Shown here in pieces: positions 409 through 47,195 of a stretch of DNA of 48,386 nucleotides. Below the pieces are notes generated by a model, which was not told the DNA's origin, ran no database searches, and worked only from the letters and a program-made list of their open reading frames with translations. Source of the stretch: Acidobacteriota bacterium (GTDB taxonomy: Bacteria; Acidobacteriota; Thermoanaerobaculia; Multivoradales; JBCCEF01); assembly GCA_039028635.1 (NCBI GenBank), contig JBCCHV010000009.1, forward strand, positions 79,446-127,831, given 5' to 3'. Every line of letters begins with the position of its first letter. The first letter of the stretch is position 1. The translations under genes and the position numbers were made by a program.

Positions 409-1896
409 CTATTCCCCCGCCATAAAGGCCTCGATCGCTTCCACCGTCCGTGGCAGCGCCTTGGACATCACCTCGGCGCCTTCGGGCCCGATCCAGAGGT
501 CGTCCTCGATGCGCACGCCGATGCCGTGGTAGCGCTCGAGGGCGCGGCGGATCTTGGCCTGGTCGGACTCGCCGAGGCTCTGGAAGGTGGCGCTGGCCTC
601 GACGTCGGCACGACGTACGTAGACACCCGGCTCGAGGGTCCACACCATGCCGACCTCGAGCTTGCGGGAGCGGTCGAAGGCGTCGTGCACCTGCAGGCCG
701 ATGGGGTGACCGACACCGTGGAGGTAATACATCTCGGTCTGCTCGCGGCTGGCCTCGGTGACCAGGCCGAGGGCGAGCAGCTCGCGGCCGAGCACCTCGA
801 TGGCTTTCTCGTGGACGTCGAGATAGAGGATGCCCGGCCGGATCGTCGCCAGACACTCGTCGAAGGCGGCGAGTACCGCCTGATAGATCTCCCGCTGGGG
901 TGCCGAAAAGGTGCCGTCCACCGGGAAGGTGCGGGTGATGTCGGCGGTGTAGCCCTCGACCTCGGCCCCGACGTCCATCAGTAGCAGGCCATCGCGGTCG
1001 AGGGGATCGTTGTTGCTGTTGTAGTGCAGGGTGGTGGCGTTGAAGCCACCGGCGACAATCGAAGGATAGCCCCAGCAGCAGGCGCCGCGGTCGCGGAAAC
1101 CGTGCTCGACGGTGGCCTCCACCTGGTACTCGTGGGTCGCCGTCTTGGCTCGGCGCATGCTGGCTTCGAGGGCTTCGACGGTGATGTCGACGGCGCGCTG
1201 CAGGAGCTGGCGCTCGGCGGGACTCTTGAGCTCGCGCAGGGCCTGCAGATGGGGCGAGAGGTCGCGGATTTGGATTTCCGGATAGCGCTGCCGTAGCTCC
1301 GCGGCGAGGTGCTGCTCGGGCGTCTCCTCACCCTGAGGAGTGGTGCGGAACTCGAGGTCGAGCCAGAGGGTCGCGAGGCCAGCTCGCGCCGCCGAGTGAA
1401 TCCTGGGCAGGCCGACCGGACGGTAGTAGCGGTAGGTTTTGGTTTCACCCCAGGGCAGGCCGTCGAAGGCGGCGTCGAGGAAGCGCTCCAGGCGGTCCGC
1501 CGAGGCCACCTCGGCGATGCCGCTGACCGCCGTCGCCTCTTCCCGCGACAGCAGACGACCGTTCCAGACCTCCGTCAGCGGGTCGCGGTCGAGGAGGAAC
1601 AGCACCTCCGAGTGCTGCTTCTCGCTCGGCACCAGGGCGAGGGCGGTGTCGTGCTGGTCGATGCCGGTGAGATAGAGCAGCGAGTCATCCTGGCGGAAGG
1701 GCCAGTCGACATCGCCGTTGCGGTGCTTGGCGTGCTCCGGCAGCAGCACGGCGATGCCGTGAGGACCGATCACTTCGGCCAGGCGAGCGCGGCGCTCGGC
1801 ATACTCCTCGGCGGGAATCGACGCCGCTCCCAGGCTGGCAGGCAGGATGACCACGACGGTCAAAAGGAGGGCGAGACGGGAGGTCGGTCGGTTCAT
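409..1896 (-). CDS. M24 family Xaa-Pro aminopeptidase, exported
   Basis: The 495-aa protein has an aminopeptidase P N-terminal domain (about residues 26-160) and a C-terminal pita-bread metallopeptidase domain. All five dinuclear-metal ligands of the M24 family are visible: D308 (LLMDVGA), D319 (YTADITRTFP), H397 (HGVGHPIG), E422 (TLEPGVY) and E464 (GVRIEDD). The first ~25 residues form a hydrophobic signal sequence (RLALLLTVVVILPASLGA), so it probably acts in the periplasm, removing the N-terminal residue from peptides with proline at position 2. Its ATG overlaps the stop of the upstream M1 aminopeptidase (ATGA), which indicates translational coupling. Together the two enzymes could degrade peptides, including proline-blocked ones. 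The family assignment is firm; the precise substrate is inferred. Confidence 0.95.
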   Translation of the reverse strand: MNRPTSRLALLLTVVVILPASLGAASIPAEEYAERRARLAEVIGPHGIAVLLPEHAKHRNGDVDWPFRQDDSLLYLTGIDQHDTALALVPSEKQHSEVLFLLDRDPLTEVWNGRLLSREEATAVSGIAEVASADRLERFLDAAFDGLPWGETKTYRYYRPVGLPRIHSAARAGLATLWLDLEFRTTPQGEETPEQHLAAELRQRYPEIQIRDLSPHLQALRELKSPAERQLLQRAVDITVEALEASMRRAKTATHEYQVEATVEHGFRDRGACCWGYPSIVAGGFNATTLHYNSNNDPLDRDGLLLMDVGAEVEGYTADITRTFPVDGTFSAPQREIYQAVLAAFDECLATIRPGILYLDVHEKAIEVLGRELLALGLVTEASREQTEMYYLHGVGHPIGLQVHDAFDRSRKLEVGMVWTLEPGVYVRRADVEASATFQSLGESDQAKIRRALERYHGIGVRIEDDLWIGPEGAEVMSKALPRTVEAIEAFMAGE

Positions 1897-4487
1897 GGGC
1901 GTCGCTTCTTTCGGGAGGTCGTTGAGCGGGTGTCGTCGTCGGCGCCCTTGGTTTGCTGGCGCAGCTTCCAGGCCGAGGCTATCGCGGCCCGGCGCAGTTG
2001 GGGATCGAGGGCCGAGGCGGTGATCCCGTCGAGCAGCGGCAGGGCTTCCGGCTTGCCGAGTTTGGGCAGAGTTTCGGCGGCGCTGATCCGGGCTCGCAAG
2101 TCGCGGCGATCCCCGAGGACGTCGCGGAGCAGGGCGAAAACCTCCTGCTGTCGCTTCTCTCTGCCTTCCGCCAGCTCGGCCAAGGCTGCCAAGGCGGCTT
2201 TGCGGCTGGCCGGCGGGGCGCCGTAGCGAGCCAGCGTCAGGATGACCTCCCAGGAATCGCGGTCCTGCTGCCGGGCGAGGCCGGCGAGGGCGGCGCGGCG
2301 AATGACCTCGCGGTAGCTCTCCTGGGTGAGGGCGGAGCGCAACAGGGCGATCGCCGCCTTGCGCTCGGCGCGGAGCTTGCCCAGGCTGCGGGCGGCGGCG
2401 GCGCGCACCCGGTAGCTCGGGTCGCTGCGCAGAGCGCCTTCGAGTTGGGGCAGGATCTCGTCGGCCAGCTCATCGCGCACCGTCAGATCGCCGAGGGCGT
2501 CGAAGGCGGCGGCGCGGACGGCGCTCTCCGGGGCGCGCAGCGCTTCGTCGAGGGCCTGGTAGGCAGCGCGGGTGCCGATGGTGCCGAGGCTGTCCGCGGC
2601 CACCTTGCGCAGGCGGAAGGACCGCCGACTGTCGATCAAGCGTTCGAGGGCCTCCACGGCGGCGCCGCGCCGCTCGCTGAGCGCCCGGGCGGCCCGCAAC
2701 TGTGCCGCGAACGGTGCCTGGTCGAGCTGCAGGATCCACTCCTCCAGAGTCTGGAGGGGATTGATCTCGGCGAGCAGGGTGCCGTGCGGGTCGAAGACCA
2801 CCGTCGCCGGTCGCTCGCCGGCCGGGAAACGCAGGAGCTGCTGCTCGCGGTCGAGGAGCTGCCGGCGGACGCTCTCCTGTCGGCCATCTTCGAAGATCGC
2901 CATCAGCTCGACCGGGTACCGCAGTCGGGACCCCTGCTGGGCGACGTCGACGAGCACCTCCCCGGGCTCGTCGGCCTCCCCGCGGGCCGGAACGTACTCC
3001 CAACTCAGCGAGATCTCGGGGTGGCCAGCGCCGTAGACGTAGGTCTCGAACAGGGCGCCAAGAGAGACACCGGTGGTTTCCTCGACCGCTGCCTGGAAGT
3101 CCGCCGTCGTCACCGAGCCGTCCTGGTGGCGCTCGAGGTACTCGGCGATGGCGGCGCGCCAGCCGGCCTCGCCGGTGAGATCCCGCACCATGTGCAGCAC
3201 CCGGGCGCCCTTCTGGTAGAGGTGGGCATCGAACATCGCCATCGGGAACGGATAGCGGCGGGTGACGATCGGCCGGCGGTACTCCTCGTCGTCCTCCTCG
3301 AAGTAGCGCTGGGCGAGCTCGTCGAGGCGCCAGGCGAAGCCCTCCTCGCCCTCCGCCTCGAGGCGGTAGAGGGTCTCGAAGTAGGTGGCGAAGCCCTCGT
3401 TCAGCCAGGCGTCGCGCCAGTGGCGGGTGGTGACCCAGTTGCCGAACCACTGGTGGGCGAGCTCGTGGGCCACCAGGCCGCGGCTCGAGTAATCGAGGGC
3501 AGCGCGCTCGTCGTGCAGCGTGGCGAGGCTCTGGGTGGTGGCGGTGATGTTCTCCATGCCGCCCCACAGAAAGTCGACGGCGCAGGTCTGGTCGTACTTG
3601 ACGTAGGGATAGCGGTGGCCGGTGATGTCCGAGAAGAAGGTCATCATGCGCGGCGTCTCCGAAAACGACCGGCGGCCCTCGACCTCACGCCCCGGCGGCA
3701 CCCAGTAGGCGAGGGGGATGTCCTGCCAGGAGTCTTCCAGCCGCACCAGCTCTCCGGCGAGCACCGAGATCAGGTAGGTGGCGTGGGGTTGCTCCATCGT
3801 CCAGTGGAAGGTGCGCCAGCCGTCCCGGTCGCTGCGCTCCGCGACCAGGCGCCCGTTGCTCACCGCCGTCAGCGGGGCCGGGACGGTGACTACCAGCTCG
3901 CTGGTGGCCTTGTCGTTGGGATGGTCCCAGGTCGGAATCCAGTAGCGGTTGAAGGTCGACTCGCCCTGCGACCAGATCTGCTTCGGCTTGTCCGGAAAGG
4001 CGTCGTCCGGTCCCACGAAGTAGAGGCCCGCCAGCGGCTCGGCGCGGTAGGTGATGGCGACCTCCAACCGTTCCCCGGGCTCGAAGCGGCGGCCGAGATC
4101 GGCGGTGAGGGTCTGGGCCGCCTCGTCGAGGCGGAAGGCGAGGGTACGCCGCTCGCTCACCAGGCGAACTTCCGAGACCAAGAGCCCGGCGGCGTGCAGG
4201 GTTATCTCGTCGAGGCCCGCCGGCAGCGGCGTCAAGACGTTGGTGGCGGTGCCGGCGACCGAACGCTGGTCCCAGTCGAGGGTGACCTCGGCCTTGACAT
4301 GGAGGAGGTCGAAGGCTCGCGCCGGCATGTAGTCGGCAGGCGTGCCTTCAGGGGCGAAGGGGCGACGGTCGGAGCCGTCCTCGGCGAGGGCGCCGAGGCT
4401 CAGAAAAGCGCCAAGAAACAGCGAGGCGGCGAGCCCAAGGGCCCACCGCCTCATGAGTTGCGTAAGCCTCGAAGGCTCAGGCAGCAT
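1893..4487 (-). CDS. M1 family metalloaminopeptidase with C-terminal HEAT repeats
   Basis: This 864-aa zinc aminopeptidase has the gluzincin site HELAH (341-345) with the third ligand E364 in WLNEG, exactly HExxH-18-E. The exopeptidase motif reads GGMEN (309-313) in place of GAMEN, a common variant. After the catalytic and helical regions, about residues 600-850 form a series of helical HEAT-like repeats (AVRAAAFDALGDL, VRAAAARSLGKL, RKAALAALAELA, LRRAAIASAWKL). A signal peptide lies near the N-terminus. The ATG at 4487 overlaps the last codons of the selenoprotein gene, and the in-frame ATG at 4454 (MRRWALGLAASLFLGAFLSL) gives a more typical signal peptide. The start is therefore uncertain by 11 codons. 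It sits between the SelW-like gene and the M24 peptidase in one operon. Confidence 0.95.
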   Translation of the reverse strand: MLPEPSRLTQLMRRWALGLAASLFLGAFLSLGALAEDGSDRRPFAPEGTPADYMPARAFDLLHVKAEVTLDWDQRSVAGTATNVLTPLPAGLDEITLHAAGLLVSEVRLVSERRTLAFRLDEAAQTLTADLGRRFEPGERLEVAITYRAEPLAGLYFVGPDDAFPDKPKQIWSQGESTFNRYWIPTWDHPNDKATSELVVTVPAPLTAVSNGRLVAERSDRDGWRTFHWTMEQPHATYLISVLAGELVRLEDSWQDIPLAYWVPPGREVEGRRSFSETPRMMTFFSDITGHRYPYVKYDQTCAVDFLWGGMENITATTQSLATLHDERAALDYSSRGLVAHELAHQWFGNWVTTRHWRDAWLNEGFATYFETLYRLEAEGEEGFAWRLDELAQRYFEEDDEEYRRPIVTRRYPFPMAMFDAHLYQKGARVLHMVRDLTGEAGWRAAIAEYLERHQDGSVTTADFQAAVEETTGVSLGALFETYVYGAGHPEISLSWEYVPARGEADEPGEVLVDVAQQGSRLRYPVELMAIFEDGRQESVRRQLLDREQQLLRFPAGERPATVVFDPHGTLLAEINPLQTLEEWILQLDQAPFAAQLRAARALSERRGAAVEALERLIDSRRSFRLRKVAADSLGTIGTRAAYQALDEALRAPESAVRAAAFDALGDLTVRDELADEILPQLEGALRSDPSYRVRAAAARSLGKLRAERKAAIALLRSALTQESYREVIRRAALAGLARQQDRDSWEVILTLARYGAPPASRKAALAALAELAEGREKRQQEVFALLRDVLGDRRDLRARISAAETLPKLGKPEALPLLDGITASALDPQLRRAAIASAWKLRQQTKGADDDTRSTTSRKKRRP

Positions 4488-4716
4488 TCAGTCGGGCGGC
4501 CAGAGCGGCCTCCGCTTCGCCCGAATCGGGGAAACGGCCGAGGGCCTTCTTCGAGAACAGCAGCTCGTTTCCGAGGGTCACCTCGAAGACCCCGCCGGAA
4601 CCCTTCACGAGCTCCGTTTCGAGGCCGAACTGCTCTTTGATCGCGTCCGCCAGACCGGCGGCTCGGGGCTTGTAGTTTCAAACAACGCAGTATTCGATGC
4701 GGACTTTCTGACTCAC
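4477..4716 (-). CDS. SelW-like (Rdx family) selenoprotein with in-frame UGA = selenocysteine
   Basis: Reading from the GTG at 4716 gives a 79-residue protein if the in-frame TGA at codon 13 (bases 4680-4678) is read as Sec. The start is MSQKVRIEYCVVUNYKPRA, followed by a short alpha/beta protein ending LNAA. The C10-V-V-U13 motif after the first beta strand, followed by NYKPRA, is the signature redox motif of SelT/SelW/SelH (Rdx) thioredoxin-like proteins. The central GGVFEVTLG and LLFSKK strands also match the family, as does the total length. The GTG has AGGAG six bases upstream. A SECIS-like hairpin follows the UGA. The gene starts 19 bases after the GlsB-type gene and its end overlaps the M1 peptidase start. 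Family members are thiol oxidoreductases of poorly known physiological role. Codons 1-12 alone, or a start after the TGA, would give a meaningless fragment. Confidence 0.93.
4647..4661 (-). promoter_or_regulatory. Bacterial SECIS-like hairpin (apical stem-loop)
   Basis: Sixteen bases past the UGA, inside the coding sequence, the mRNA can form CCGCC-GGUCU-GGCGG: a perfect 5-bp stem with a 5-nt loop. The loop GGUCU matches the GGUCU loop of the E. coli fdhF SECIS that SelB binds. The loop GG lies about 21 nt from the UGA, inside the spacing known for bacterial SECIS elements. The match is read directly from sequence; function is inferred. Confidence 0.8.
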
Positions 4717-4735
4717 GGGAATCTCCTGGGTGGTA

Positions 4736-4990
4736 TCACTTCTTGCCACGGATGATGCGGAACAGCAACAGCAGGAGCACCGATCCGCCCACCGCCATCA
4801 AGAGGCTCTGCAGGCTGAAGCCGGAGAGGCCACCGAAACCGAGAAAGTTCCCGAGAAACCCTCCGAGCAGCGCTCCCACAACCCCGAGGATGGTCGTCAT
4901 GACGCATCCGCCGGGATCCTTGCCGGGCATGATGAACTTCGCCAACGCACCGGCGACAAGTCCCAGAACAATCCAATAGACGATTCCCAT
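4736..4990 (-). CDS. GlsB/YeaQ/YmgE family small membrane protein
   Basis: This 84-aa hydrophobic protein has three predicted membrane segments (YWIVLGLVAGALAKFIM, ILGVVGALLGGFLGNFLG, LLMAVGGSVLLLLLFRII) and the family pattern G-L-x-A-G-x-x-A-x-x-I-M-P-G-[RK]-D-P-G-G. Proteins of this transglycosylase-associated group are widespread stress-induced inner-membrane proteins with no established biochemical activity. A strong AAGGAGG lies just upstream of the ATG. It is the first gene of the operon that continues with the selenoprotein and two aminopeptidases. Stress induction of the whole unit is a reasonable but untested inference. Confidence 0.92.
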   Translation of the reverse strand: MGIVYWIVLGLVAGALAKFIMPGKDPGGCVMTTILGVVGALLGGFLGNFLGFGGLSGFSLQSLLMAVGGSVLLLLLFRIIRGKK

Positions 4991-5325
4991 TCCATCCTCC
5001 TTCGAAAGTCGTGCTTCGGGGTGGGCGGGGCTAGCTTACCTCGGTGCGGGTCGGAGGTCCGGTGGGGGACCGGATCTCGTCGGAGGTCGTCCCAGCAGCC
5101 CCGTTCGCTAAAGCCCCGTTCCCTACAGCCCCGTTCGCTAGAGCCCCGTTCCCTACAGCCCCGGGGTGGGGGACGGAAAAGCCACCGCCGAACCTCCCCC
5201 TCGGTCCCGATTTGAGCCGGGATGCCCCCGAATCGAGGCACCTTCGGGACCTTCGCCGACCGGCGACCGGTGGCCCGGAGTCCCCCCTCCCTGAGGCCGT
5301 TTCCTGCCGATAGAATGCCGCCATC
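4991..5325. other. Divergent intergenic region between the GlsB-type gene and polA
   Basis: These 335 bases separate the minus-strand operon from polA and must hold both promoters. Apart from the 15-bp tandem repeat annotated separately, no gene, RNA or clear sigma70-type hexamer pair was recognised. The region is GC-rich throughout. Confidence 0.6.
5098..5162. repeat. 15-bp tandem repeat, four full copies
   Basis: The units are GCCCCGTTCGCTAAA, GCCCCGTTCCCTACA, GCCCCGTTCGCTAGA and GCCCCGTTCCCTACA, followed by a partial GCCCC. Alternate copies match best, so it is really a 30-bp unit present twice. Its length is a multiple of three and its minus-strand translation reads as repeats of GNGALANGAV, but no gene with a start signal contains it. 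It lies between two divergent genes, in what should be promoter territory. Confidence 0.9.
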
Positions 5326-7974: not shown

Positions 7975-8234
7975 GGGGGCAGCTCCTCTGACCCTCAACC
8001 AAAACTCAGCAACGCCTCTCGGTCGGAACCACTTCCTGGATTGAGGCGAAGCGTACACAGGACGCTTCGGTCGCCCTGTAGTGATTAGGTTGACTCTACG
8101 CTAACTCCCGGCTTCGATTCTGGCCCTGTCGAGTGAAGACTTGGATTTGAAGAGCGCTGCCTCGGTTGGTAAAGTGATTGTGCTATGAAAGGCTTAAGGT
8201 TGGAGCTCAGCCATCGTTTGGGGTCTGCGAATTG

Positions 8235-11060
8235 ATGACACTTTCACCCGGTGAACATCCAGGTGCTACTTGGCGCCGAGTCGATCTACAGGTTCACAGT
8301 ATTCGCGATCCGAATTGGAAAGGCCGCCGTTTTGAGGGGCGTGAGGTAACGGATCTAGAGCAGGCCCGCAAGGAATGGTCTGAGAAGTTTGTCCTGGAAT
8401 GTCGTGCGATAGGCCTCTCTGCGATCGCTTTGACTGATCATCATGATGTTTGCATGATTCCCTATGTGGTCGATGCAATCAAGAGACTTAACTTGGAAGA
8501 AGACCTCTGGTTGTTTCCTGGGATTGAGGTGACCTGTGATGATGCTTGCCAAGCATTGGTGATCTTTGATGTTGGAGTCGAACCCGCCCGTCTGCATAGA
8601 TTGCTTGGAAAACTCAAGAAGGTCGACCAGATTGGTGATGATCAGCTAGTGGCATCGCCGGCCTCGAATGCTGGGCTAAGAGTCGAAGAGTTGGTCGATG
8701 AAATCGGTCTTGACGCAGTCCTCGATCCGATTTGCGTCGTAGTTCCGCACGCTGGTGGCGATGGGGCTCATAAGAGTGTCTTGCGTCGTGAGTTCCATTC
8801 CAGGTTTAGGAACCTGAACTGCGTCGGTTTCTATGTTGAAACAGCCTTCTCAAGGCTTAGCCAAAGTGCGAGACGGAAGATCTATGGCGAGGACAAGGAA
8901 TGGGGTGGTCGGCGACGGGGCCTCGTCGTTACTGGAGATAATCGCAGGGCTGATTTTTCCGATCTCGGTGTCAATCCTTGCTGGATTCGATTGGGTGAGC
9001 CGACGGCTGAGTCACTTAGACAGGCCTTCTTGGCTGACGAGGCGCGCATTCGCTTTGAGCGACCAACAGTCCCATCGCAGAGAGTTCTGGCGGTCAGGGT
9101 CGATTCGACGCTGACTTGTCTAACGGGAATCACCTTCAATGACGGCTTCACGGCGATAATTGGCGGGCGGGGATCGGGAAAATCTTCTCTCCTTGAGTTT
9201 CTTCGGTTCGGATTGGGGCGCAGCAGTCTAGATGTTCCCGGCGAGTCTCCTGAGAAGTCGAGACTTAAGAGTCTTCTGGAAACTACCCTGGCAAACGGTT
9301 ATGTAGAAGTCGATCTCGATCGAGACGGGGTATTCGAGACGTGGCGCCGAACCCTCCGTGATCGCGAGACCATTCAGGTGCAGGTTGCAGAAGAACCTAA
9401 GGAGGAGATTTCAGTCCCCGTTGCCCAAGAAAGGTTCCGCGCTCGTGCCTACGAGCAGAAAGAGCTGTCGACGATTAAACCTTCTCGCCTTGACGCGATG
9501 AGGCAAGTGTCGAGTATCGCAGCTGCTGAGCTGTGGGAGAAGCGGCATGCAGTAGAGGCAAGTGTCGAGGAGCACCGGAGAAGCATTCGTCGAATTCTCG
9601 GTAAGGTTGTTGATCTTTGGGCCCTTGAATCCGGCCGCAACGTGGTTGCAGCACGCTACAGGGATCTGAGGAGGCGATTGAAGTCAATCAGCGATCAATT
9701 GGTGCAGCAGGGGGTGTCGGAGGCCGATAGCGAGATCCTGTCTCGTGCTCAGTACTTCCTTCGGGGTGGCTCGCTGCTCGCTGAGTTAAGGGCTGACCTA
9801 GTTGGTCTAGGGCGGCAGGTTGATGATTTGGTCAAGAGAGTTTCATCTGTTTCAATTGGAACAGGTGATATTCCTGATGATCAGGACTTTGAAATTATCA
9901 AGTCGATAGCAAGAGAGGTGACTAACTCGAAAGAGGCTGTGAAGAACTCTCTGGAAGATGCTGGTCGAATCCTTGATGAACTGACTCAGGGCCTGAACTC
10001 TGGGGCTCAGCGGTTTGAGATTCTAAAGTCAGCATTTGAGGGGCATCGAAAGGCGGCAGGGCAACGCCAGGCCGGACTCGCAAGGCTAGTAGATGAGCAG
10101 GCGAAATTGCAGAAAGCCTTGGAGGATGCCGAGCGGGAAGGTAAGGAGGTCCGCGGCAGGATCGCAAAGTTGGGCGGTGCAGGGGAGGAGCTCTTGGCGG
10201 CACGCGAGGCTCTGAGCTCGGAGTTCGCGAAGCGAAGGACAGTTCTGAGTGAGGCGGCGGCGAAGACTTCTGATGTGTCAGAGGGGGTGCTGAGAGCAAC
10301 TGTCGTTAGTCCAGATGTTCCCCGTGCCTATTCTGAGGCGCTGAAGGGTTTGCTGGCTGGAGCGATGGTGCACGATTTAGAGTTTAAGGTTGACGAGTGG
10401 ACTCGGCGACTAGTTGAGAGGGATGAATGGCAAGCGCTCGGGAATCGGTTGTTGAGACTCTTCCGGCTTCATGTTGTGGAAGGAGATCAAAGGGGTGCTG
10501 TTGACGTCAGAGTCCTTCAGGAGTGCCTTGGAGCCAATCTCTCTGGCCTGACAGAGCGGCAGGTTGAGCAGATGTTCCTCAGGATGTCGGAGGAGAAAGT
10601 CGTGGCAGTATTGGCTGCCGATCCAAGGGAAGTCGTTGAATTTGAGTATTTGGATGGCGACGCCTATATCCAATTTGAGGCTGCGAGCCCCGGCCAGCAA
10701 GCGGGTGCTCTACTACAGCTTCTGCTCATCCAGGAAGCCGGTACCCTAATTGTTGATCAGCCAGAAGAGGATCTGGATAGCGGAGTGATAATGCGGATTG
10801 TCTCGCTGCTAAGGAAGACTAAGCAGAAGAGGCAGGTGATATTTGCAACTCATAACCCAAATGTCGTGGTCAATGGTGATGCGGATAAAGTAATAGCCCT
10901 TCGGTCTTCAGTGTTGGCCGGTGGTGACGGTGGAGTACCTAGGGTTAGCGTTTGGGTTGATGGTGCACTGGAGACACCTCGATTGAGAAGTGCTGTGGTC
11001 GAGATCATGGATGGTGGTCAGGCGGCGTTCGAGTTGCGAAGAGCAAAGTACCGATTCTGA
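8235..11060 (+). CDS. TrlF-like PHP domain / SMC-type AAA ATPase
   Basis: The predicted 941-aa protein begins with a PHP-type phosphoesterase-like domain: WRRVDLQVHS, then ALTDHHDV, FPGIEVTC and VVPHAGG (about residues 12-290). An ABC/SMC-type ATPase follows, with Walker A GGRGSGKSS (~309) and a long charged helical region (~420-700, probably coiled coil). Walker B is LIVDQPEEDLD (~836), followed by an H-loop in FATHNPNVV. This is the layout of the TrlF family of AAA-like ATPases, often seen in variable genome regions. The first PHP metal ligand is replaced (DLQVHS for DLHVHS). I chose the ATG at 8235 over a TTG at 8178 because homology begins right after it. GC is visibly lower (about half) than in flanking genes and codon use differs, pointing to horizontal acquisition. 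A defence role is inferred, not shown. Confidence 0.85.
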   Translation: MTLSPGEHPGATWRRVDLQVHSIRDPNWKGRRFEGREVTDLEQARKEWSEKFVLECRAIGLSAIALTDHHDVCMIPYVVDAIKRLNLEEDLWLFPGIEVTCDDACQALVIFDVGVEPARLHRLLGKLKKVDQIGDDQLVASPASNAGLRVEELVDEIGLDAVLDPICVVVPHAGGDGAHKSVLRREFHSRFRNLNCVGFYVETAFSRLSQSARRKIYGEDKEWGGRRRGLVVTGDNRRADFSDLGVNPCWIRLGEPTAESLRQAFLADEARIRFERPTVPSQRVLAVRVDSTLTCLTGITFNDGFTAIIGGRGSGKSSLLEFLRFGLGRSSLDVPGESPEKSRLKSLLETTLANGYVEVDLDRDGVFETWRRTLRDRETIQVQVAEEPKEEISVPVAQERFRARAYEQKELSTIKPSRLDAMRQVSSIAAAELWEKRHAVEASVEEHRRSIRRILGKVVDLWALESGRNVVAARYRDLRRRLKSISDQLVQQGVSEADSEILSRAQYFLRGGSLLAELRADLVGLGRQVDDLVKRVSSVSIGTGDIPDDQDFEIIKSIAREVTNSKEAVKNSLEDAGRILDELTQGLNSGAQRFEILKSAFEGHRKAAGQRQAGLARLVDEQAKLQKALEDAEREGKEVRGRIAKLGGAGEELLAAREALSSEFAKRRTVLSEAAAKTSDVSEGVLRATVVSPDVPRAYSEALKGLLAGAMVHDLEFKVDEWTRRLVERDEWQALGNRLLRLFRLHVVEGDQRGAVDVRVLQECLGANLSGLTERQVEQMFLRMSEEKVVAVLAADPREVVEFEYLDGDAYIQFEAASPGQQAGALLQLLLIQEAGTLIVDQPEEDLDSGVIMRIVSLLRKTKQKRQVIFATHNPNVVVNGDADKVIALRSSVLAGGDGGVPRVSVWVDGALETPRLRSAVVEIMDGGQAAFELRRAKYRF

Positions 11061-33701: not shown

Positions 33702-34400
33702 ATGCCGCTGCAAGACGTGGCTTCATGGGGTAGATCGGAACCCGTGAGCGAAACCCATCAAGACGAACCGCCCGACCTCTCGCCATCGGAAAACCAGGCT
33801 GTGGAATCTCCCGCGCCGAAGCCTTCGGGCTCTTACGGAGAGGTCACGGCCCTGCTTCGACGCTGGGCACAAGGCGACCGAGGCGCCCTCGATCAGCTCA
33901 TGCCGAGGTTGATCGACGAGCTCAAGGGGTTGGCCCGGCGACAGCTCGTCGATGCGCCGGCGGACTTCACCCTCAGTCCGACGGCGATGGTGAACGAGGC
34001 CTACCTTCGTCTGGTGGGCTCACCGCTTAGCGGCTTTTCGGGGCGCGGTCAGTTCTTTGCTTTGGCGGCTCGGGTGTTGCGAGGTGTGCTGGTGGATCAC
34101 CTGCGGGCTCGATCGTCTGCCAAGCGCGGCGGCGACGCCGTGCGCCTGCCGCCGGAGCTGCTGGGGGCGGTGCCGGAACCGACGATGCTCGACCCTGAGA
34201 AGGTGCTCACGTTGCACGCTGCCCTGCGCCGCCTCGAGGAGATCGATCCGCGGCGCGGACGGGTGGTGGAGCTGCGCTACTTCGCTGGCTTGACGATCCC
34301 GGAGATCGCCGTCGAGCTGGAGGTGTCGGTACCGACCGTCGAACGCGATTGGCGAGTCGCGCGGCGTTGGCTAGCGAGCGATCTGGCGGGTCGCCGATGA
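33702..34400 (+). CDS. ECF-like RNA polymerase sigma factor (TIGR02999-type)
   Basis: The 232-aa protein has a ~45-residue Ser/Pro/Glu-rich N-terminal extension, then sigma region 2 (EVTALLRRWAQGDRGALDQLMPRL, SPTAMVNEAYLRLVG, QFFALAARVLRGVLVDHLRARSSAKRGG). Region 4 follows with its helix-turn-helix (ELRYFAGLTIPEIAVELEVSVPTVERDWRVARRWL). The region-2 pattern is that of the group found mainly in Acidobacteria, Planctomycetes and relatives, often encoded beside Ser/Thr kinases. The start at ATG 33702 has no clear Shine-Dalgarno sequence; GTG 33744 is an alternative. Its last 30 bases overlap the 3' end of the convergent kinase gene. Confidence 0.92.
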   Translation: MPLQDVASWGRSEPVSETHQDEPPDLSPSENQAVESPAPKPSGSYGEVTALLRRWAQGDRGALDQLMPRLIDELKGLARRQLVDAPADFTLSPTAMVNEAYLRLVGSPLSGFSGRGQFFALAARVLRGVLVDHLRARSSAKRGGDAVRLPPELLGAVPEPTMLDPEKVLTLHAALRRLEEIDPRRGRVVELRYFAGLTIPEIAVELEVSVPTVERDWRVARRWLASDLAGRR

Positions 34401-37400
34401 ACGCGGAGAGTCGTAGCGAGCGCTGACCCGTGACAGCAGTCGACGCCCGGTGGCGGCTACCGACGGGTCGGAGTTGGAGGTCAGCGCTTCGAGCTTTGGG
34501 ATCAGACCCTTGGGGGCTGCCGCTCCCGGCTTCGTCGTCAGGGATTCGATGGCGTCTCTCTGTGAATGTCGCCAGTGGGTGGAGTGCCACAGGGGTGGCC
34601 AGTGGCGGCGAATCTGGGCGAGAAGGAGGCGAGTCTCCTCGGGAGCTGCCGTCGCCTTTGTCTCGGCGAGAAGCAAGCCGACCTGGGTTGGCCAGGGGTG
34701 GCTCTCGCCATAGGTCGTCGCGAGGCGTTCGAGGGCTTTCTCGAGGGCCTTTCCGGCGGCCGCGAGATCTCCCATCTCGAGCTGCTGAGTCGCCCACTCG
34801 ATGCGGATCTGCTCCGCCACCGGAGACCACGAGGGCGATGCCTCGAGCCGCCGGATGGCTGGCGCCAAAGAATCTCGGGCGCGGTCGAGGTCGCCCGTCA
34901 GACGGAGGGAGCGGGCTCGCCAGGAGGTGACCACGGCGGTGAGCCAATGCTCCTCTCCGAGCCCTGAGTCGAGGGTGGCGAGGGCTTTCTCGAGGTCCGC
35001 GACGGCGGCCTGGCTCCTGCCGACGGATAGCCTGGCCCGGCCGCGATTGCCGAGGCTGATCGCGCTTCTCGGGTGGCTCTCGCCGAGGATTTCGGACCGC
35101 ACCTTCGCGGCCTGCTCGAAGAGGAGCAGCGCTTCTGCCGGAAGGTTGGAGGTCAGCAGCACGCTGCCGAGGCTGTTGGCGGTTCGGGCGACCGACAGGT
35201 GATCGTCCCCATGATGCTGGCGGTAGAGCTCCAGGCTTCTCGTCAGGTGTTCTCGCGCCGCCTCCAGGCGTCCTCGCCGCTGCTCGAAGGCGCCGAGATC
35301 CTCGAGTGCGTCGGCAACGGCGGGGGAAGCCTCTCCCGCACCGGCCCCGGCGAGTTCGAGCCGTTCCTCGAGCAGTCCCCGGGCCTCTTCGAAGTCGCCC
35401 GCATCGCGCAGCACCGTGCTCAGGTTGGCGAGGGCGACCAGGGTTTTGGGATGGGAGGGTCCGAGCACTCGGCGGTAGATCTCGAGAGCCTCGCGGAAGG
35501 ACTTCTCGGCGCCCTCCCGGCGGCCGTTCTCAAAGCGCAACACTGCGAGATTGGAGAGCGCCAAGCCGTGCATGACGGTGCCGATCGAGGCGCCTTCGAG
35601 TTGGTCGATCATCTCCAGGAGGAGACTCTCGGCGGAGTCGTGCCGGTCCCGCTGCGTCAACAGGTGGGCCCGGTTGATGCCGTAGGTCAAGGTTTGCTTG
35701 TCATCGGGGCCGAGCTCGCGGGATGCGAGGTCGAAGGCTTCTCGGTAGGCCTCGTTGGCGGCCTCCAGGTCGGACCGGCGCTCGTGGACGTTGGCCAGCT
35801 CGTTGAGGCAGTAGGCGAGCTCGGTTCGGTGCTTTGGGCTGGACTGCCGAAGACCTGCGATGGCTTGTCGAAGGCGCTGTTCGGCGTGATCGAGCTCACC
35901 GGTGAGCAGATCGCGGCGCCCAAGGGCGCAGTGGCTCTCCGCCGTCGACGGGTGGTTCGCGCCGAAGGCTGCACGGCGGGTTGCCCATCCCTCTTCCAAC
36001 AGCGGTGACGCCAGCTCCGGCTCGTTCAAGCCCAGATAGATCGACCCGAGGAGCTGCATTAGCTCGGTCTGCACGGCGGGCTCATCGGCGAGGTCCGTCA
36101 AGCGTCGCGAGCTGCCGGCCAAGACCTGACGCAGAGGGACATCGAGGCCGGAGCCCTGGTGGGGCTCGGCCTCTTCGAGCAAGGTGATGAGAAATCCCTT
36201 GACCCGTTCGGATCGCTGCACCGCTTGCTCCGCCCTCGAGCGCTGGCGTTCGCGCTCGAGGGCCACCGCGCCGAGCACGACGCAAACCAGGGCTGCCAGA
36301 GCGATGGCGAGGCGATGGCGGGTCAGGAACTTGCCGGCTCGGTAGGTCCAGCGGGCAGGTCGCGCCCGCACCGGCCGGTGGTCGAGGCTCCGGCGCAGGT
36401 CGTCCGCCAGCTGCTGCACCGACGGGTAGCGATCCTCGGGATCTCGTTCCATCGCCTGCAGGACAATGGCGTCGAGGTCGCCACGGAGTCGCCGCCGTTC
36501 GGCCCGCCGCGCGGCCGGGACTCGGTCGCTCGGCCGCACCGGGTCGCGCTCGCACTTCGCCATCAGCAGGGCGCCTTCCGAAGGCTCCTCGAGGGATTCG
36601 TCAGCGAACGGACGCCGGTCGGTGATCAGCTCGTAGAGCAGGGTTCCGAGGGCGTAGACATCGCAGGCGGTGGAAAGCGGTCCGCCGGCGATCTGCTCCG
36701 GTGCCGCGTAGGCCGGAGTCAGCATGCGAAGGTCGGCCCGGGTGCGGGTCACGGCGCGATCCGTCGTTGGGTCGAGCAGCTTCGAGATGCCGAAGTCGAG
36801 CAGCTGGGGCTCGCCGTTCGCGGTGACCAGAATGTTCGATGGCTTGAGGTCGCGATGAACCACCAGGTTGCGGTGGGCATACTGCACGGCATCGCAGATA
36901 CGCACGAACAGCCGCAGTCGCTGGTCGAGGTCGAGGGAGCGGCAAGCGACATCCACCGGTTGGCCCTCGATGAATGGCATCACCAGGTAGGGCCGGCCGT
37001 CTTCGAGCATGCCGCCGCCGCGCAGGGCAACGATGTGTGGGTGGCGCAGGGCGGCGAGGATCGCTCCTTCGCGGCGGAAACGCTGCACCAGATCGTCCGT
37101 GGCCATCCCTTGGCGCAGCACCTTGATCGCCACCGGCCGGGGATCCTCGGTACCGATCGCGGCGCCACGAAAGACCGTCGACATGCCGCCCTCGCCGATC
37201 TTGGCGGTGATCTCGAATCCGGCGATATGGTCCGGGTCTTGGGCCACCGGGACGGCGCGGAAATCGAACAGCGGCCGGTCGTAGGCATCGGCCACCGAGG
37301 TGTCGATCCGTAACAGGCGCTCGACCTCGCGACGCAGGGCCTGGTCGTCGCCGCAAGCCTCCGAGAGGTAGGCCTCCCGTTCGGCGGCGGGGAGCTCGAG

Positions 37401-37460
37401 GGCTCGGCCGAGCACGTCGGCGGCTCGCGACCAGAGGTCGACGGTTCGATCCGAAACCAC
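34371..37460 (-). CDS. Membrane Ser/Thr protein kinase with TPR sensor domain
   Basis: The 1029-aa protein has a Hanks-type kinase domain (about residues 80-345): GEGGMSTVF glycine loop, K113 in VAIKVL, E131, HRDLKPSN (D204), DFG (D222) and APEQ. One transmembrane helix follows at about 383-401 (LAIALAALVCVVLGAVAL). The outer ~600 residues are tetratricopeptide repeats of the kinesin-light-chain type (LAVLRFENGRREGAEKSFREALEIYRRVLGPSHPKTL and similar). A conserved N-terminal ~60-residue segment (WSRAADVLGRALELPAAERE) is typical of this kinase class. It probably relays protein-protein signals from the periplasm and may control the neighbouring sigma factor, an inference from gene pairing. Confidence 0.95.
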   Translation of the reverse strand: MVSDRTVDLWSRAADVLGRALELPAAEREAYLSEACGDDQALRREVERLLRIDTSVADAYDRPLFDFRAVPVAQDPDHIAGFEITAKIGEGGMSTVFRGAAIGTEDPRPVAIKVLRQGMATDDLVQRFRREGAILAALRHPHIVALRGGGMLEDGRPYLVMPFIEGQPVDVACRSLDLDQRLRLFVRICDAVQYAHRNLVVHRDLKPSNILVTANGEPQLLDFGISKLLDPTTDRAVTRTRADLRMLTPAYAAPEQIAGGPLSTACDVYALGTLLYELITDRRPFADESLEEPSEGALLMAKCERDPVRPSDRVPAARRAERRRLRGDLDAIVLQAMERDPEDRYPSVQQLADDLRRSLDHRPVRARPARWTYRAGKFLTRHRLAIALAALVCVVLGAVALERERQRSRAEQAVQRSERVKGFLITLLEEAEPHQGSGLDVPLRQVLAGSSRRLTDLADEPAVQTELMQLLGSIYLGLNEPELASPLLEEGWATRRAAFGANHPSTAESHCALGRRDLLTGELDHAEQRLRQAIAGLRQSSPKHRTELAYCLNELANVHERRSDLEAANEAYREAFDLASRELGPDDKQTLTYGINRAHLLTQRDRHDSAESLLLEMIDQLEGASIGTVMHGLALSNLAVLRFENGRREGAEKSFREALEIYRRVLGPSHPKTLVALANLSTVLRDAGDFEEARGLLEERLELAGAGAGEASPAVADALEDLGAFEQRRGRLEAAREHLTRSLELYRQHHGDDHLSVARTANSLGSVLLTSNLPAEALLLFEQAAKVRSEILGESHPRSAISLGNRGRARLSVGRSQAAVADLEKALATLDSGLGEEHWLTAVVTSWRARSLRLTGDLDRARDSLAPAIRRLEASPSWSPVAEQIRIEWATQQLEMGDLAAAGKALEKALERLATTYGESHPWPTQVGLLLAETKATAAPEETRLLLAQIRRHWPPLWHSTHWRHSQRDAIESLTTKPGAAAPKGLIPKLEALTSNSDPSVAATGRRLLSRVSARYDSPRSSATRQIAR

Positions 37461-37634: not shown

Positions 37635-39896
37635 TCAGAAACTCAGCGCGAAGGTCAGGCGGGCCTGTCGCGGGGTGCCGGGAACGGCATTGGTGACCGC
37701 CGTTCGGCTGCCGCCGAAGAAGTAGACGTACTCCTCGTCGAGCAGATTGGTGATCGCCAGTTGAATGCGGTCGAGGCGGGCCAGGGGCGGTCGATAGGAG
37801 GCCCGCAGGTTGACCAGATCGTGGGCGCCACCGAAGAAGGCGTTGTCTTGGGTGATCGGATAGTCGCTGTAGGACTCCCAGGACAGGCCGAGGTCCAGGC
37901 GCTCGCCGAACCGCTGATCGAAGGCCAGGTAGAGGATGCGTTCCGGAACCCCCGTCGGTTGGCTGCCGGAGAGATCGAGGGGGCCCGAAAAGGTGCTGAC
38001 GACGAGCTCGTCCCACTCGGCGTCGACGCGGCTGTAGCGGCCCTCGATGCGACTGCCGCGGAAGCGATAGCTGACGGTGGCTTCGAGCCCCTGGCTGGTG
38101 AAGCGCTGGCCGGTGGTGGCGATGGTCGATGGCACGGTGAAGTCGTTGGCCGCCTCCGGATTGGAGACGAACACCAGGCGATCCTTCTGCTCGATCGAGA
38201 ACAGCGACAGTCCGTAGTCGAGTCGCCCGCCGAGCACCGAGCCTTTGGTACCGACCTCCAGGTTGCGCAGGGTCGTCGGGCGCGTTTCCCGGATGTAGCG
38301 ACTGGGATCCCACTGCCACACCGGTCCGAAGTTTGAGCTGAAGCCTTCGCCGGCATTGAGGTAGACGGTCTGTTGCGGGCCGATCGCGAACACCACGCCG
38401 AGCTTGGGGCTGATGTGGTCTTCCGAGTCGACGACCTCCGGCTGACGCAGGCGCAGCGGGCCGGTTTCGAGGAGGGTGCGGCGCTCGAAGTCGTCCCAAC
38501 GGGCTCCGAGGGTGATCGCCAGGCGCTCGCCGAGATCGAATTCGGTCTGCGCGAAGGCGGCGGTGAACTGGTTCTCGGTATCGCCCGAGAGATTGTGTTG
38601 GCGCTCCACGAAGCAGGGGTGGTCGCGATTGAGCACGGCCCCTGTCGCGAGATCGACCTCGATCAAGTAGAAGGCGAAGCCGCAGTCGAAGGTGAAGCCG
38701 AACTGGCCGGTCCAGCGGTCGGTCTCCACCAGGTCGGTGAGCTCGTAGCTGGCGCCCACCAGGGTGCGACTGTTGCCGAAGGTGTGCTCATAGGTCGCTT
38801 CCGCGAAGGAGGTGGTCTCCTCGACCTCGGAGTCGAAGCCGTTGACCCCCAGCACGCCGCGGCCCGGGTCGGTGCCGAAGAGGTCGAAGAAGTCGAGGAT
38901 GTTGTCGCTGTCGCGGCGGCGGTGGTGGAGCGTCGCCTGCAGGAGCTGGTCGCGGCCGAGCACCGAGGAGAGGCGCACCGCGGCCATCGTGCTGCGGCTG
39001 TCGATGCCGATGTCTCGGGAGCCGAGGAAGGCCTCGCGCCCACCGCCGACGGGAATCAGGGAGCCGTCGGCGAGGGTCGGGAGGACGCTGCCGTGCTCGA
39101 AATCCCGGTCGTGGAAATTCAGGTAGGTGTCGACGGAAGTCCGCTCGCTGACGGCGTACTGCCAGCGGGCGAGGAGCCCATAGCGCTGGTTCTCGTTGTG
39201 CTCGCGCCAGCCATCGGCGACCAGGCCATCGAGGTTGAGAAACAGGCCGTGGTTGCCGAACCGCCGGCCGAGGTTGAAGGTCGTATTCCAGTAGCCGTCG
39301 GAGCCGGCGGCGAGGCGCAGCTCTGTCTGGGTGTCGGCGGGAGAATGCAGGTTGTAGGCGATGGCACCGGCGATCCCGCCGCGGCCGTAGAGGGCGGAAA
39401 CCGGTCCGCGCACGATTTCGATTCCGGCGACGGCGCCATAGGGAATCTCGGACATCAGCACCTCTTCGTCACCGCTGACGAAGGGAATGCCGTCGACCAG
39501 GGCGAGAAAAGTGTCGTTGCCGTGGTTGCCGGTCACGCCCCGGAAGTTGACGAACAGGAAGGCGTCGTTGTCGCCTTCGCTGCGGCGAAAGAAGATGCCC
39601 GGCTGGCCGCGCAGCTCGTCGGCGCCGGCGTAGAAGCCGGCGTCGGTGAGCGAACCGAAGTCGAGGCTGGTGATGTGGGCCGGCACCTCGAGGGTGCGTT
39701 TCTCACCGCGGGTGGCGACGACGACGATCTCGTCGGTCACCGTTTCGGTGTCGTTGGGCTGGGACTGGTCTGCGGTCTCGGCCGGCTGTGCCCACGCCGG
39801 AAGGCCGACCAGGGCAGAGGGCAGCCCGCCGACGGCGAGCACGATGAGGAGGGTGGCGGAGGCGATCCTTCGGCGGCGATCACGGGAGGCAGGCAT
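37635..39896 (-). CDS. TonB-dependent outer-membrane receptor
   Basis: The 753-aa protein has a signal peptide (ATLLIVLAVGGLPSALVGLPAWA) and a TonB-box-like ETVTDEIVVVATRG. The plug domain includes LRGQPGIFFRR and PYGAVAGIEIVRGPVSALYGRGGIAGAI (in parts), and a 22-strand barrel ends in the aromatic LTFALSF. The family imports siderophores, metals, cobalamin or sugars. It is the last gene behind the ABC transporter, separated by 75 bases, with AAAGGAA before its ATG. The ligand is not obvious; its position in a metal-handling island suggests a metal complex. Confidence 0.95.
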   Translation of the reverse strand: MPASRDRRRRIASATLLIVLAVGGLPSALVGLPAWAQPAETADQSQPNDTETVTDEIVVVATRGEKRTLEVPAHITSLDFGSLTDAGFYAGADELRGQPGIFFRRSEGDNDAFLFVNFRGVTGNHGNDTFLALVDGIPFVSGDEEVLMSEIPYGAVAGIEIVRGPVSALYGRGGIAGAIAYNLHSPADTQTELRLAAGSDGYWNTTFNLGRRFGNHGLFLNLDGLVADGWREHNENQRYGLLARWQYAVSERTSVDTYLNFHDRDFEHGSVLPTLADGSLIPVGGGREAFLGSRDIGIDSRSTMAAVRLSSVLGRDQLLQATLHHRRRDSDNILDFFDLFGTDPGRGVLGVNGFDSEVEETTSFAEATYEHTFGNSRTLVGASYELTDLVETDRWTGQFGFTFDCGFAFYLIEVDLATGAVLNRDHPCFVERQHNLSGDTENQFTAAFAQTEFDLGERLAITLGARWDDFERRTLLETGPLRLRQPEVVDSEDHISPKLGVVFAIGPQQTVYLNAGEGFSSNFGPVWQWDPSRYIRETRPTTLRNLEVGTKGSVLGGRLDYGLSLFSIEQKDRLVFVSNPEAANDFTVPSTIATTGQRFTSQGLEATVSYRFRGSRIEGRYSRVDAEWDELVVSTFSGPLDLSGSQPTGVPERILYLAFDQRFGERLDLGLSWESYSDYPITQDNAFFGGAHDLVNLRASYRPPLARLDRIQLAITNLLDEEYVYFFGGSRTAVTNAVPGTPRQARLTFALSF

Positions 39897-44490: not shown

Positions 44491-44816
44491 GTCCTTCACG
44501 CCGCCGCGACGGGGCGTCCCCCACAGAGTCATTTCAAGCACTGGCCGCTGCCTTGCCGGTGCAATGGATCTTTGCTCGTTGGATTTTTGGTTTGAGGTCT
44601 AGGAGGCTGCTGAAAAAAGCCTCTCCGCGTCTTTTTTCGCGCCTCCTAGGTCATCTCCAGGGGGTCTGTTCCAGCCCCCCTTAAGGCGAAAAAGTGCGAT
44701 TTTTCGCCTTTCACCCCCAATGGCGGCTTCGCCGGCGAGCCCGTACGGGCTCGTAGGAGGCTGCGGAAGGGGATTTTCGGCAGCCTCCTAGCGGGGGCTC
44801 GAGGAAGGAACTCGTG
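44491..44816. other. Gene-free segment before the ZnuD-like receptor
   Basis: Most of this 326-base stretch is the hairpin-rich repeat element described separately. The first ~110 bases hold nothing recognisable. The last 25 bases carry the GAGGAAGGA ribosome-binding region of the receptor gene. Confidence 0.6.
44599..44791. mobile_element. MITE-like element of four consecutive hairpins
   Basis: The ends are inverted repeats: CTAGGAGGCTGCTGAAAA at the left and its complement with one mismatch at the right, with CTAG at both borders as a possible target duplication. Inside are four perfect-stem hairpins. (1) 44599-44649: CTAGGAGGC/GCCTCCTAG plus GAAAAAAG/CTTTTTTC. (2) 44683-44710: AAGGCGAAAAA/TTTTTCGCCTT. 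(3) 44736-44753: CGAGCCCGTACGGGCTCG. (4) 44754-44790: TAGGAGGCTGC/GCAGCCTCCTA. No transposase is encoded. Confidence 0.7.
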
Positions 44817-47195
44817 ATGAATTCACATTGTGTTCGTGGTTGCCGAGGGCGTCGAGCCACCGGCTCTCGTCGGTTTTCGGCGGTTGTTCTCGTCGCTTTG
44901 TTTGTTGCTTCGTTTGCGCTGCTCTTGCTGCCTTCGGCGGTGGGGGCTCAAGAGGTGGGCTCGCTGGCCGGCCAGGTCGAAAAGTCGACCGGGCGCAGCT
45001 TCGTCCTGGCGACCGCCCGCATTCCCGACCTCGGCCGAATCGTCGACGTCGGCGAGGACGGAAGCTTTCTTTTCGAAGATCTGAAGCCCGGCTCCTACCT
45101 CTTGGAGGTGCGGGTGCCGAGTCGCGGCGTTGGAATCGAGCGCGTCTCGGTGCGAGCCGGCGAAACCTCCTCGGTGATGGTGGAGATCTCCGTCGGTAGC
45201 CACTCGGAGGAGATCGTCGTGTCGGCTTCGGCCGATGCCCGCAGCTCCCTCGAGCTGGCGGCGCCGACCATCAGCCTGAGCGGCAACTACCTCGAGCTGC
45301 GACGGGAGTCGAGCCTGGGGGAGACCCTGGCTCTCGAGCCCGGAATCCACTCGACCTACTTCGGTCCCGGCGCCAGCCAGCCGGTGATCCGTGGATTCAC
45401 CGGCAGCCGGATCCGAATTCTCGAAGGGGGAATCGATACCGGCGACGTGGCGGCCGTCAGCGCCGATCACGCGGTGACCTCGGAGCCGGCCCAGGCGGAC
45501 CGTATCGAGGTCCTGCGCGGGCCGGGAACCCTGCTCTACGGCTCGAACGCCATCGGCGGTGTGGTCAACGTGATCGACGAGCGCGTCCCGACGCTGCTCG
45601 GTAGCGGTGGCATCAACGGCAGCTTCGAGCTACGCACCGGGAGCGCCGCCGACGAGCGCCAGGGAACCGTGGCTTTGGGCGGCGGCGGCGGCCAGTGGTC
45701 CTGGAACCTGGCGGCGACCGGGCGCGAGTCCGATGACTACGACATCCCCGGTTTCGCCCGCCTCGAGGAAGAGGAGCACGATGAGGACGATCATGACGCC
45801 CACGAGGAGGAGGAAGAGAATCCCTTCGGTACCGTCCCCAATAGCGACATCGAGACCCGCAGCGTGCGCGCCGGGGCCACCTACTTCTTTGGCGATCAGG
45901 GCTTCCTGGGCGTCTCCGTGAGCGGTTTCGACACGGATTACGGCATTCCGGGGGGGCATGGCCATGGAGAAGAGCATGGCGAAGAGGAAGGGGAGCACGA
46001 AGAGCACGAGGAAGAAGAGCACGGCGAGGAAGAGGTGCGCCTCGACATGGAGCAAAGGCGAATCGATCTGCGCGGCCAGGTCAACCTGGCGCTGGCGGCC
46101 TTCGAAGCCCTCAAGGTGCGCTTCGGAGCCAGTGACTACGAGCACTTCGAGGTCGAAGGCGAGGAGGTGGGAACCTTCTTCTTCCGAGACTTCGTCGAGA
46201 CCCGCCTCGAGCTGATCCAGAGCCAGCGCGGCCGCCACAGCGGATCCGTCGGCCTGCAGTTTCTCGATGGCGACTTCGAGGCGGTCGGAGAGGAAGCTTT
46301 CATTCCGGCGACGACGACCCAGAGCTGGGGCCTGTTCACGCTGCAAGAATTGGCGACTCAGTCGGTCACCTGGCAGCTCGGAGCCCGTTTCGAAACCCAA
46401 GAGTCGGAGCCGGTGGCCCAGGCTCGCCGCACCCACGACGGCCTGAGCGCCTCCCTCGGGATGGTTTGGCAGGCCAACGACACCTTCCAGCTGGCCGTCT
46501 CCGGCGCTCGCTCGGTTCGCCTGCCGGCGGCCGAAGAGCTCTTCGCGGATGGGCTACACGTCGCCACCCGAACCTTCGAGATCGGCGATCCCACTCTCGA
46601 AGAAGAGGTCGGGCTGGGTCTGGACCTGGCACTGCGCTTCGCCGGCGAATCGGTCAGCGGAGAGGTGAGCTTCTTTCGGCAGCGTTTTTCGGACTACATC
46701 TTTCAATCCTTCACCGGCGTGGAGAGGGAAGGCGCTCCATTGGTTCTCTATGCCCAGGAAGACGCCACCTTCTCGGGCATCGAGCTCCAGGGGCGAGTCG
46801 AGATCTTCGAGAAAGAGGATCATCATGTCCATCTCAGCGTGATGGGCGATCTGGTCGATGCCGAGCTCGAGAACGGTGAAAACGTGCCGCGGGTGCCGCC
46901 GGTGCGCCTCGGGACTGCGGCTCACTATCACGGCAGCCGCTGGAATGCCTCGACCGAGCTGGTTTGGGTCGACGACCAGACGGACGTGGCACCGAACGAG
47001 TCGGCGACCGACGGCTACACCCTGCTCAACGCCAGCCTGGGCTATCGCTTGGTGCTGGGCAACCAGGTGGTGGACCTGCTCCTGCGTGGTAAGAACCTCA
47101 CCGACGAGGAAGCCAGGAGCCACACCTCGTTCCTCAAGAACGAAGCGCCGTTGCCGGGTCGCAACATCAGCCTCTCCGCCCGCTTGCGCTTCTGA
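44817..47195 (+). CDS. ZnuD-like TonB-dependent receptor with acidic His-rich loops
   Basis: The 792-aa protein has a signal peptide (FVASFALLLLPSAVGAQ) and a carboxypeptidase-regulatory-like domain (GSLAGQVEKSTGRSFV ... EDLKPGSYLLEVRVPS). The plug (LGETLALEPGIHSTYFG, GASQPVIRGFTGSRIRILEGG, PAQADRIEVLRGPGTLLYG) leads into a barrel ending SLSARLRF. Two loops are loaded with metal-ligand residues: residues ~317-338 (EEEEHDEDDHDAHEEEEE) and ~378-410 (GGHGHGEEHGEEEGEHEEH, then EEEEHGEEE). This is like the zinc-binding loops of Neisseria ZnuD, so zinc (or another divalent metal) uptake is likely. ATG 44817 is chosen; a GTG directly before it is possible. Confidence 0.93.
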   Translation: MNSHCVRGCRGRRATGSRRFSAVVLVALFVASFALLLLPSAVGAQEVGSLAGQVEKSTGRSFVLATARIPDLGRIVDVGEDGSFLFEDLKPGSYLLEVRVPSRGVGIERVSVRAGETSSVMVEISVGSHSEEIVVSASADARSSLELAAPTISLSGNYLELRRESSLGETLALEPGIHSTYFGPGASQPVIRGFTGSRIRILEGGIDTGDVAAVSADHAVTSEPAQADRIEVLRGPGTLLYGSNAIGGVVNVIDERVPTLLGSGGINGSFELRTGSAADERQGTVALGGGGGQWSWNLAATGRESDDYDIPGFARLEEEEHDEDDHDAHEEEEENPFGTVPNSDIETRSVRAGATYFFGDQGFLGVSVSGFDTDYGIPGGHGHGEEHGEEEGEHEEHEEEEHGEEEVRLDMEQRRIDLRGQVNLALAAFEALKVRFGASDYEHFEVEGEEVGTFFFRDFVETRLELIQSQRGRHSGSVGLQFLDGDFEAVGEEAFIPATTTQSWGLFTLQELATQSVTWQLGARFETQESEPVAQARRTHDGLSASLGMVWQANDTFQLAVSGARSVRLPAAEELFADGLHVATRTFEIGDPTLEEEVGLGLDLALRFAGESVSGEVSFFRQRFSDYIFQSFTGVEREGAPLVLYAQEDATFSGIELQGRVEIFEKEDHHVHLSVMGDLVDAELENGENVPRVPPVRLGTAAHYHGSRWNASTELVWVDDQTDVAPNESATDGYTLLNASLGYRLVLGNQVVDLLLRGKNLTDEEARSHTSFLKNEAPLPGRNISLSARLRF

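Follow-up and report, generated by a model that had tools for sequence, protein, structure and literature searches.

The gene on the minus strand at positions 4477 to 4716 of the window (the whole stretch of DNA that was analysed, 48,386 nucleotides) almost certainly encodes a SelW-like selenoprotein of the Rdx family, in which codon 13, a UGA, specifies selenocysteine (Sec). The first-pass annotation had proposed a SelW-like selenoprotein with a CxxU motif and a SECIS element, and this proposal is supported by the family scores, the conserved UGA, a compensated hairpin and the Sec genes of the genome. These features, together with the reading frame and the fold, were established by computation; insertion of Sec at the UGA and the redox chemistry of the product are what we infer.

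The reading frame starts with a GTG at 4716-4714, ends with a TGA at 4479-4477, and reads GTG...TGCGTTGTTTGAAACTAC...TGA along the minus strand from 4716 to 4477. It contains 79 codons, for a product of 79 residues, and a single internal TGA. The internal TGA is located at 4678-4680 on the minus strand, and corresponds to residue 13 of the motif C10-V-V-U13. When the window was read again, the limits of the frame and the position of the TGA (4680-4678) were found exactly as annotated. A Shine-Dalgarno-like AGGAG is present at 4723-4727 on the minus strand, 6 nt upstream of the GTG. A gene caller based on stop codons would probably miss this gene.

The read-through product, with Cys entered in place of Sec, was compared with protein family profiles. 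Residues 4-67 match the Pfam profile Rdx (PF10262) with an E of 6.6e-20 and 71.5 bits, for a cut-off of 22.6 bits, and a score of 57.8 bits is obtained with TIGR02174 (cut-off 34.2). The NCBIfam profile NF041051, described as "SelT/SelW/SelH family (seleno)protein" (SelTWH_Campy), has a cut-off of 88 bits, which is narrowly exceeded at 90.2 bits. The same cut-off is passed by a close Sec-containing relative (92 bits) and is missed by the Cys-type protein of genome G174 (70 bits), by a Nitrospirota Cys protein (72.6 bits) and by a paralogue (44.2 bits). Translation past the TGA had been claimed to give a complete Rdx protein, and the product exceeds both the Pfam Rdx and the NCBIfam cut-offs.

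The predicted fold of the protein is that of SelW/Rdx. A profile built from 18 relatives matches the structures 3DEX, 2FA8, 2OKA, 2OJL, 2LJK, 2OBK and 2P0G and mouse SelW (2NPB), and the AlphaFold2 model obtained with the alignment of the 18 relatives has a mean pLDDT of 91.3. In this model the CVVU motif forms the loop between the strand at residues 5-10 and the helix at residues 16-30; C10-V-V-U13 is therefore located after strand 1 near the N-terminus, the position expected for CxxU or CxxC in this family. All 23 matches returned by Foldseek at E <= 0.001 are chains of the eight Rdx/SelW entries, with a probability of 1.00 for 2FA8, 2OKA and mouse SelW 2NPB. The Rdx structures 2FA8, 2OJL, 2OKA, 2OBK, 3DEX and 2P0G have the same fold as the model, with TM-scores (by query) of 0.79-0.92 and sequence identities of 24-36%. 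The two of these that were shown aligned, 3DEX and 2FA8, carry CxxC, whereas the protein of the window carries CxxU.

The gene was searched for in its own genome and in 117 relatives. A match at E <= 0.001 was obtained in 105 of the 118 genomes and none in the other 13. The best match of every one of the 105 genomes contains an in-frame TGA, and none of these best matches is a Cys form. In G097 the best match is a distant one (E 7.1e-5), from another subfamily (L061). The sole match without a stop is a second, partial match in G115 (residues 42-75) at the start of a contig. Four genomes are listed with two TGAs (L051-L054); the second TGA is the terminal stop. The position of the TGA was established for 124 translated loci rather than for all matches: the best 30 of the 118-genome search, the best 30 of the phylum search, 60 chosen by hand and four of a Nitrospirota type. 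Of these 124 loci, duplicates included, 114 have the TGA as the U of CxxU and 10 have Cys there instead. The commonest motifs are CVMUNY, CVVUNY and CGVUNY. In a sample of the phylum (297 genomes, own included), a match was found in 98 genomes, with an in-frame TGA in 92 and Cys only in 6.

One locus, L068 (G070:C166), carries an extra in-frame TAG past the Sec codon, from either a nonsense mutation or an assembly error, and an internal TAG is likewise listed for matches in G327 and G200. If the UGA of the window were a true stop, the gene would be a decayed Rdx pseudogene or the product of a sequencing error. The stop codon itself speaks for such a reading, and otherwise only the TAGs of L068, G327 and G200 do so. 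Nevertheless, each of the 105 genomes with a match carries the in-frame TGA in its best match, the TGA is the U of CxxU in the loci that were translated, the downstream sequence is conserved, and the hairpin described below is kept beyond the needs of the protein. The first-pass annotation had named a true stop in close relatives, or a loss of conservation past the TGA, as grounds for abandoning the assignment; the TGA and the sequence downstream of it are kept instead. With conservation that spans 54 of 61 genera, a pseudogene or sequencing error is rejected, and the probability left to this reading is negligible.

Homologues with Cys in place of U13 had also been expected. Such proteins were found in Nitrospirota and in another Rdx subfamily, but not among close relatives, where the count is zero in 118 genomes (13 of them without any match). 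The four Nitrospirota-type Cys proteins are 43-49% identical to the protein of the window and read CVVCNY (two), CGVCNY and CGACNY; they come from a contig search whose pattern required a Cys codon at position 13 and so could find Cys forms only. The six Cys proteins of the phylum sample, from five f33 genomes and G174, read CTQCRW. The G174 protein, the one examined in this respect, scores 122.3 bits against structure 2OJL, compared with 30.6 bits for the protein of the window. Because the G174 protein is the closer of the two to 2OJL, the six proteins look like members of another Rdx subfamily rather than Cys replacements. Neither SelA nor SelB appears above the cut-off in G174. Both are above the cut-off in the five f33 genomes (L105, L107-L110), which have only the Cys-type Rdx; Sec presumably serves another purpose there.

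A second Sec-type Rdx subfamily with an in-frame TGA was observed in some relatives (L056, L058, L059, L060 and, more remotely, L061). Its motif is HCVSUGYRxRAASLAA or close to it, followed by GGGFP or GGGWP. In L056, L058 and L060 the SECIS stem differs (CGGCG-AGTCT-CGCCG), and all five pairs are kept.

The apical hairpin of the SECIS element in the window, CCGCC-GGUCU-GGCGG, is located inside the coding sequence at 4647-4661 on the minus strand, with the apical loop GGUCU at 4652-4656. The hairpin starts 16 nt past the TGA and the loop 21 nt past it. The perfect hairpin reported in the first-pass annotation is thus present with the sequence and at the distance described. Its loop is one that we take to resemble the loop of the E. 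coli fdhF SECIS. With ViennaRNA, the calculated energy of the 15-mer is -8.2 kcal/mol in isolation and -9.5 kcal/mol with flanks. The bSECIS model, as quoted in PMC13188914, calls for a loop of 3-9 nt, a stem of 4-16 bp, G at the first two loop positions, a loop 16-37 nt after the UGA and an MFE <= -7.5. The hairpin agrees with this model throughout (5 nt loop, 5 bp, GG, 21 nt, -8.2 to -9.5 kcal/mol). When the window was scanned against Rfam, nothing reached the gathering thresholds.

Conservation of the hairpin was counted in 83 distinct Sec rows, obtained by collapsing rows identical over 48 nt starting at the UGA and by leaving out five Sec rows that belong to other Rdx subfamilies (L056, L058-L061) and L068, with its extra TAG. 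All five pairs are complete in 68 rows and four pairs in 15, for which the absent pair is 22-32 in 11 rows, 20-34 in 3 and 21-33 in 1. The mean number of pairs is 4.82 in register, and 0.90-3.00 when the 3' arm is slid by 1 to 6 in either direction. Compensatory changes were found at four of the five pairs: C-G in 73 rows and G-C in 10 for pair 24-30, C-G in 68 and T-A in 7 for pair 21-33, G-C in 68 and T-A in 3 for pair 22-32, and C-G in 72 and T-A in 3 for pair 23-31. The loop reads GGTCT in 38 rows, AGTCT in 19 and AGTTT in 15; its second position is G in 83 of 83 rows and its third is U or G. The 10 Cys rows form 1 to 4 pairs each, never all five.

The pairing was compared with two controls. 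When codons were exchanged among rows sharing the same amino acid, 372.9 paired cells (sd 2.2) were obtained, versus 400 of 415 observed, and none of 5000 shuffles reached 400. When synonymous codons were drawn instead from a short region further downstream in these genes, 301.0 paired cells (sd 6.5) were obtained, with a maximum of 322 in 2000 redraws. The 83 rows are related to one another, so these counts are not exact probabilities. Since the hairpin is paired beyond both controls, the protein sequence alone does not account for it.

The genome of the window (6.28 Mb, 117 contigs, 95% complete) was expected to encode SelA, SelB, SelC and SelD, and all four were found above their cut-offs, including selB and selC, whose absence had been named as a reason to reject the assignment. 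Scores of 367.5 bits for selB (cut-off 242.25), 535.4 bits for selA (cut-off 267.9) and 279.3 bits for selD (cut-off 125) were obtained, and selA and selB adjoin on contig C21. The tRNA-Sec scores 73.3 bits (gathering threshold 47) and is identified by ARAGORN as SeC with the anticodon tca. A second tRNA above the Rfam cut-off (53.1 bits) is named tRNA-Ser by ARAGORN. In 14 control genomes at E <= 0.001, the SelB, tRNA-Sec and SelD profiles match 14 of 14 and SelA 4 of 14; above the curated cut-offs the counts are 2 for SelB, 5 for tRNA-Sec, 2 for SelD and 1 for SelA. Because the SelB and tRNA-Sec profiles match every control at E <= 0.001, only the curated cut-offs discriminate.

In the phylum sample (n = 297), SelA is above the cut-off in 84 of 92 genomes with a TGA-containing Rdx versus 107 of 205 others (one-sided Fisher p 4.5e-12, relatedness ignored). 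SelA was matched in 209 genomes and is above the cut-off in 191; the 18 taken as below the cut-off were chosen by best E-values to fit this tally, and a single genome, G217, is a borderline case. The search for SelB covered 14 genomes of the phylum sample and the genome of the window. SelB is above the cut-off in 6 of the 8 genomes that have the TGA-containing Rdx and no SelA above the cut-off. Despite a TGA-containing Rdx, G191 (bin 75% complete) has a partial SelB below the cut-off and G233 (bin 64% complete) has no SelB near the cut-off. Since 107 genomes of the sample have SelA and lack a TGA-containing Rdx, the machinery alone is no proof of its use in this gene.

Instead of Sec, the UGA could specify another amino acid, Trp or Cys, or be read through by near-cognate suppression. 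The gene terminates with a TGA of its own, as do many of its relatives, and UGA is therefore not generally reassigned. The presence of the Sec machinery and the conservation of a SECIS-type hairpin argue further against this reading, which we consider very improbable.

Decoding as Sec remains the preferred reading. In bacteria, SelB with Sec-tRNA-Sec binds the SECIS hairpin and inserts Sec at UGA. In the organism studied here, SelA would make Sec-tRNA-Sec using selenophosphate from SelD, and SelB would bring this tRNA while binding the hairpin 16 nt past the UGA within the coding sequence, so that UGA codon 13 would be decoded as selenocysteine during translation. The product would be a small thioredoxin-like protein with CVVU on the loop that joins strand 1 to helix 1. 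A CxxU motif on a SelW/Rdx fold implies a thiol/selenol redox reaction, and the protein would probably act as a thiol/selenol oxidoreductase, via a selenenylsulfide between Cys10 and Sec13.

Upstream of the selenoprotein gene is a gene for a GlsB/YeaQ/YmgE-type membrane protein (Transgly_assoc; 4736-4990, minus strand; Pfam PF04226, E 1.9e-10). It ends 19 nt before the GTG, and the two genes are possibly co-transcribed. Short imperfect repeats, GGAACGGGGCT / GCGAACGGGGCT, were noticed by eye at 5091-5160, between polA and the GlsB-type gene. Downstream is a gene for an M1-family peptidase with HEAT repeats (1893-4487, minus strand; Pfam PF01433, E 9e-44), which likely starts at the ATG at 4454, judging from the sequence. 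Among 45 related loci at 44 places (L030 = L090), the GlsB-type neighbour and the divergent polA recur only in G001, of the same genus, and no peptidase match was found in the flanks (mostly 1.5 kb a side). A conserved operon was therefore rejected: with neighbours that are not conserved beyond G001, gene order names no partner. A search of a plasmid collection gave 39 records, and the 20 of them that were listed all match only the GlsB-type gene (query 27-149). Elsewhere in the window, Pfam matches identify an SMC/AAA-type ATPase of 960 aa (8178-11060, plus strand), a Ser/Thr kinase with TPR repeats (34371-37460, minus strand) and two TonB-dependent receptors (37635-39896, minus strand, and 44814-47195, plus strand).

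SelW-like selenoproteins, their SECIS elements and their omission from annotation have been published before, and the gene described here adds another instance. According to the portions of the two reports drawn on here, SelW-like selenoproteins were found in the Sargasso Sea (2005, PMC1088965) and Global Ocean Sampling (2008, PMC2398784) metagenomes. Those proteins share with ours CxxU, a bacterial SECIS after the UGA and membership of the SelW family; they are marine metagenome sequences, whereas the gene of the window comes from a 6.28 Mb genome. The former report states, in the portion drawn on, that the function of SelW-like proteins is unclear and that the motif points to a redox function. 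SelW genes overlooked in annotation are described for Epsilonproteobacteria in the consulted part of a 2015 paper (PMC4607533). For the Campylobacter jejuni SelW CJnc60, a protein of ~80 aa with Sec at UGA, the part of PMC11955535 (2025) used here gives Ribo-seq and proteomics support for full-length translation past the UGA. The protein of the window exceeds the NF041051 (SelTWH_Campy) cut-off; CJnc60 has expression support in C. jejuni, whereas the gene of the window belongs to another organism and is known from its sequence.

As excerpted, PMC1794560 gives SelW-like the number 10 in a table of families (e.g., Geobacter sulfurreducens, Desulfotalea and Symbiobacterium) and Acidobacteria with four selenoproteins of three families. 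The same excerpts do not describe the gene of the window. They state that Cys homologues of SelW-like are very few, if any, in organisms that contain Sec, which matches the picture obtained here. The excerpted text of PMC12013277 lists three known selenoproteins for one Acidobacteriota genome; the term SelW is absent from that text and from the corresponding excerpts of PMC9312934.

It is conceivable, and offered only tentatively, that the SelW-like protein is essentially fixed as the Sec form in the sampled relatives, with Sec functionally irreplaceable in this subfamily, the gene helping to retain the Sec machinery, and a second Sec Rdx subfamily, whose SECIS stem is of another build, alongside it in a few relatives. 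The match-free relatives G073, G076, G082 and G085, the 4 of 13 within the SelA sample, all have SelA, which counts against the gene helping to retain the machinery. With 83 distinct natural variants of the SECIS within a single protein family, the set is material for testing the requirements of SelB. The gene is a clean case of a type that is prone to loss in annotation based on stop codons and that is widespread among the sampled relatives.
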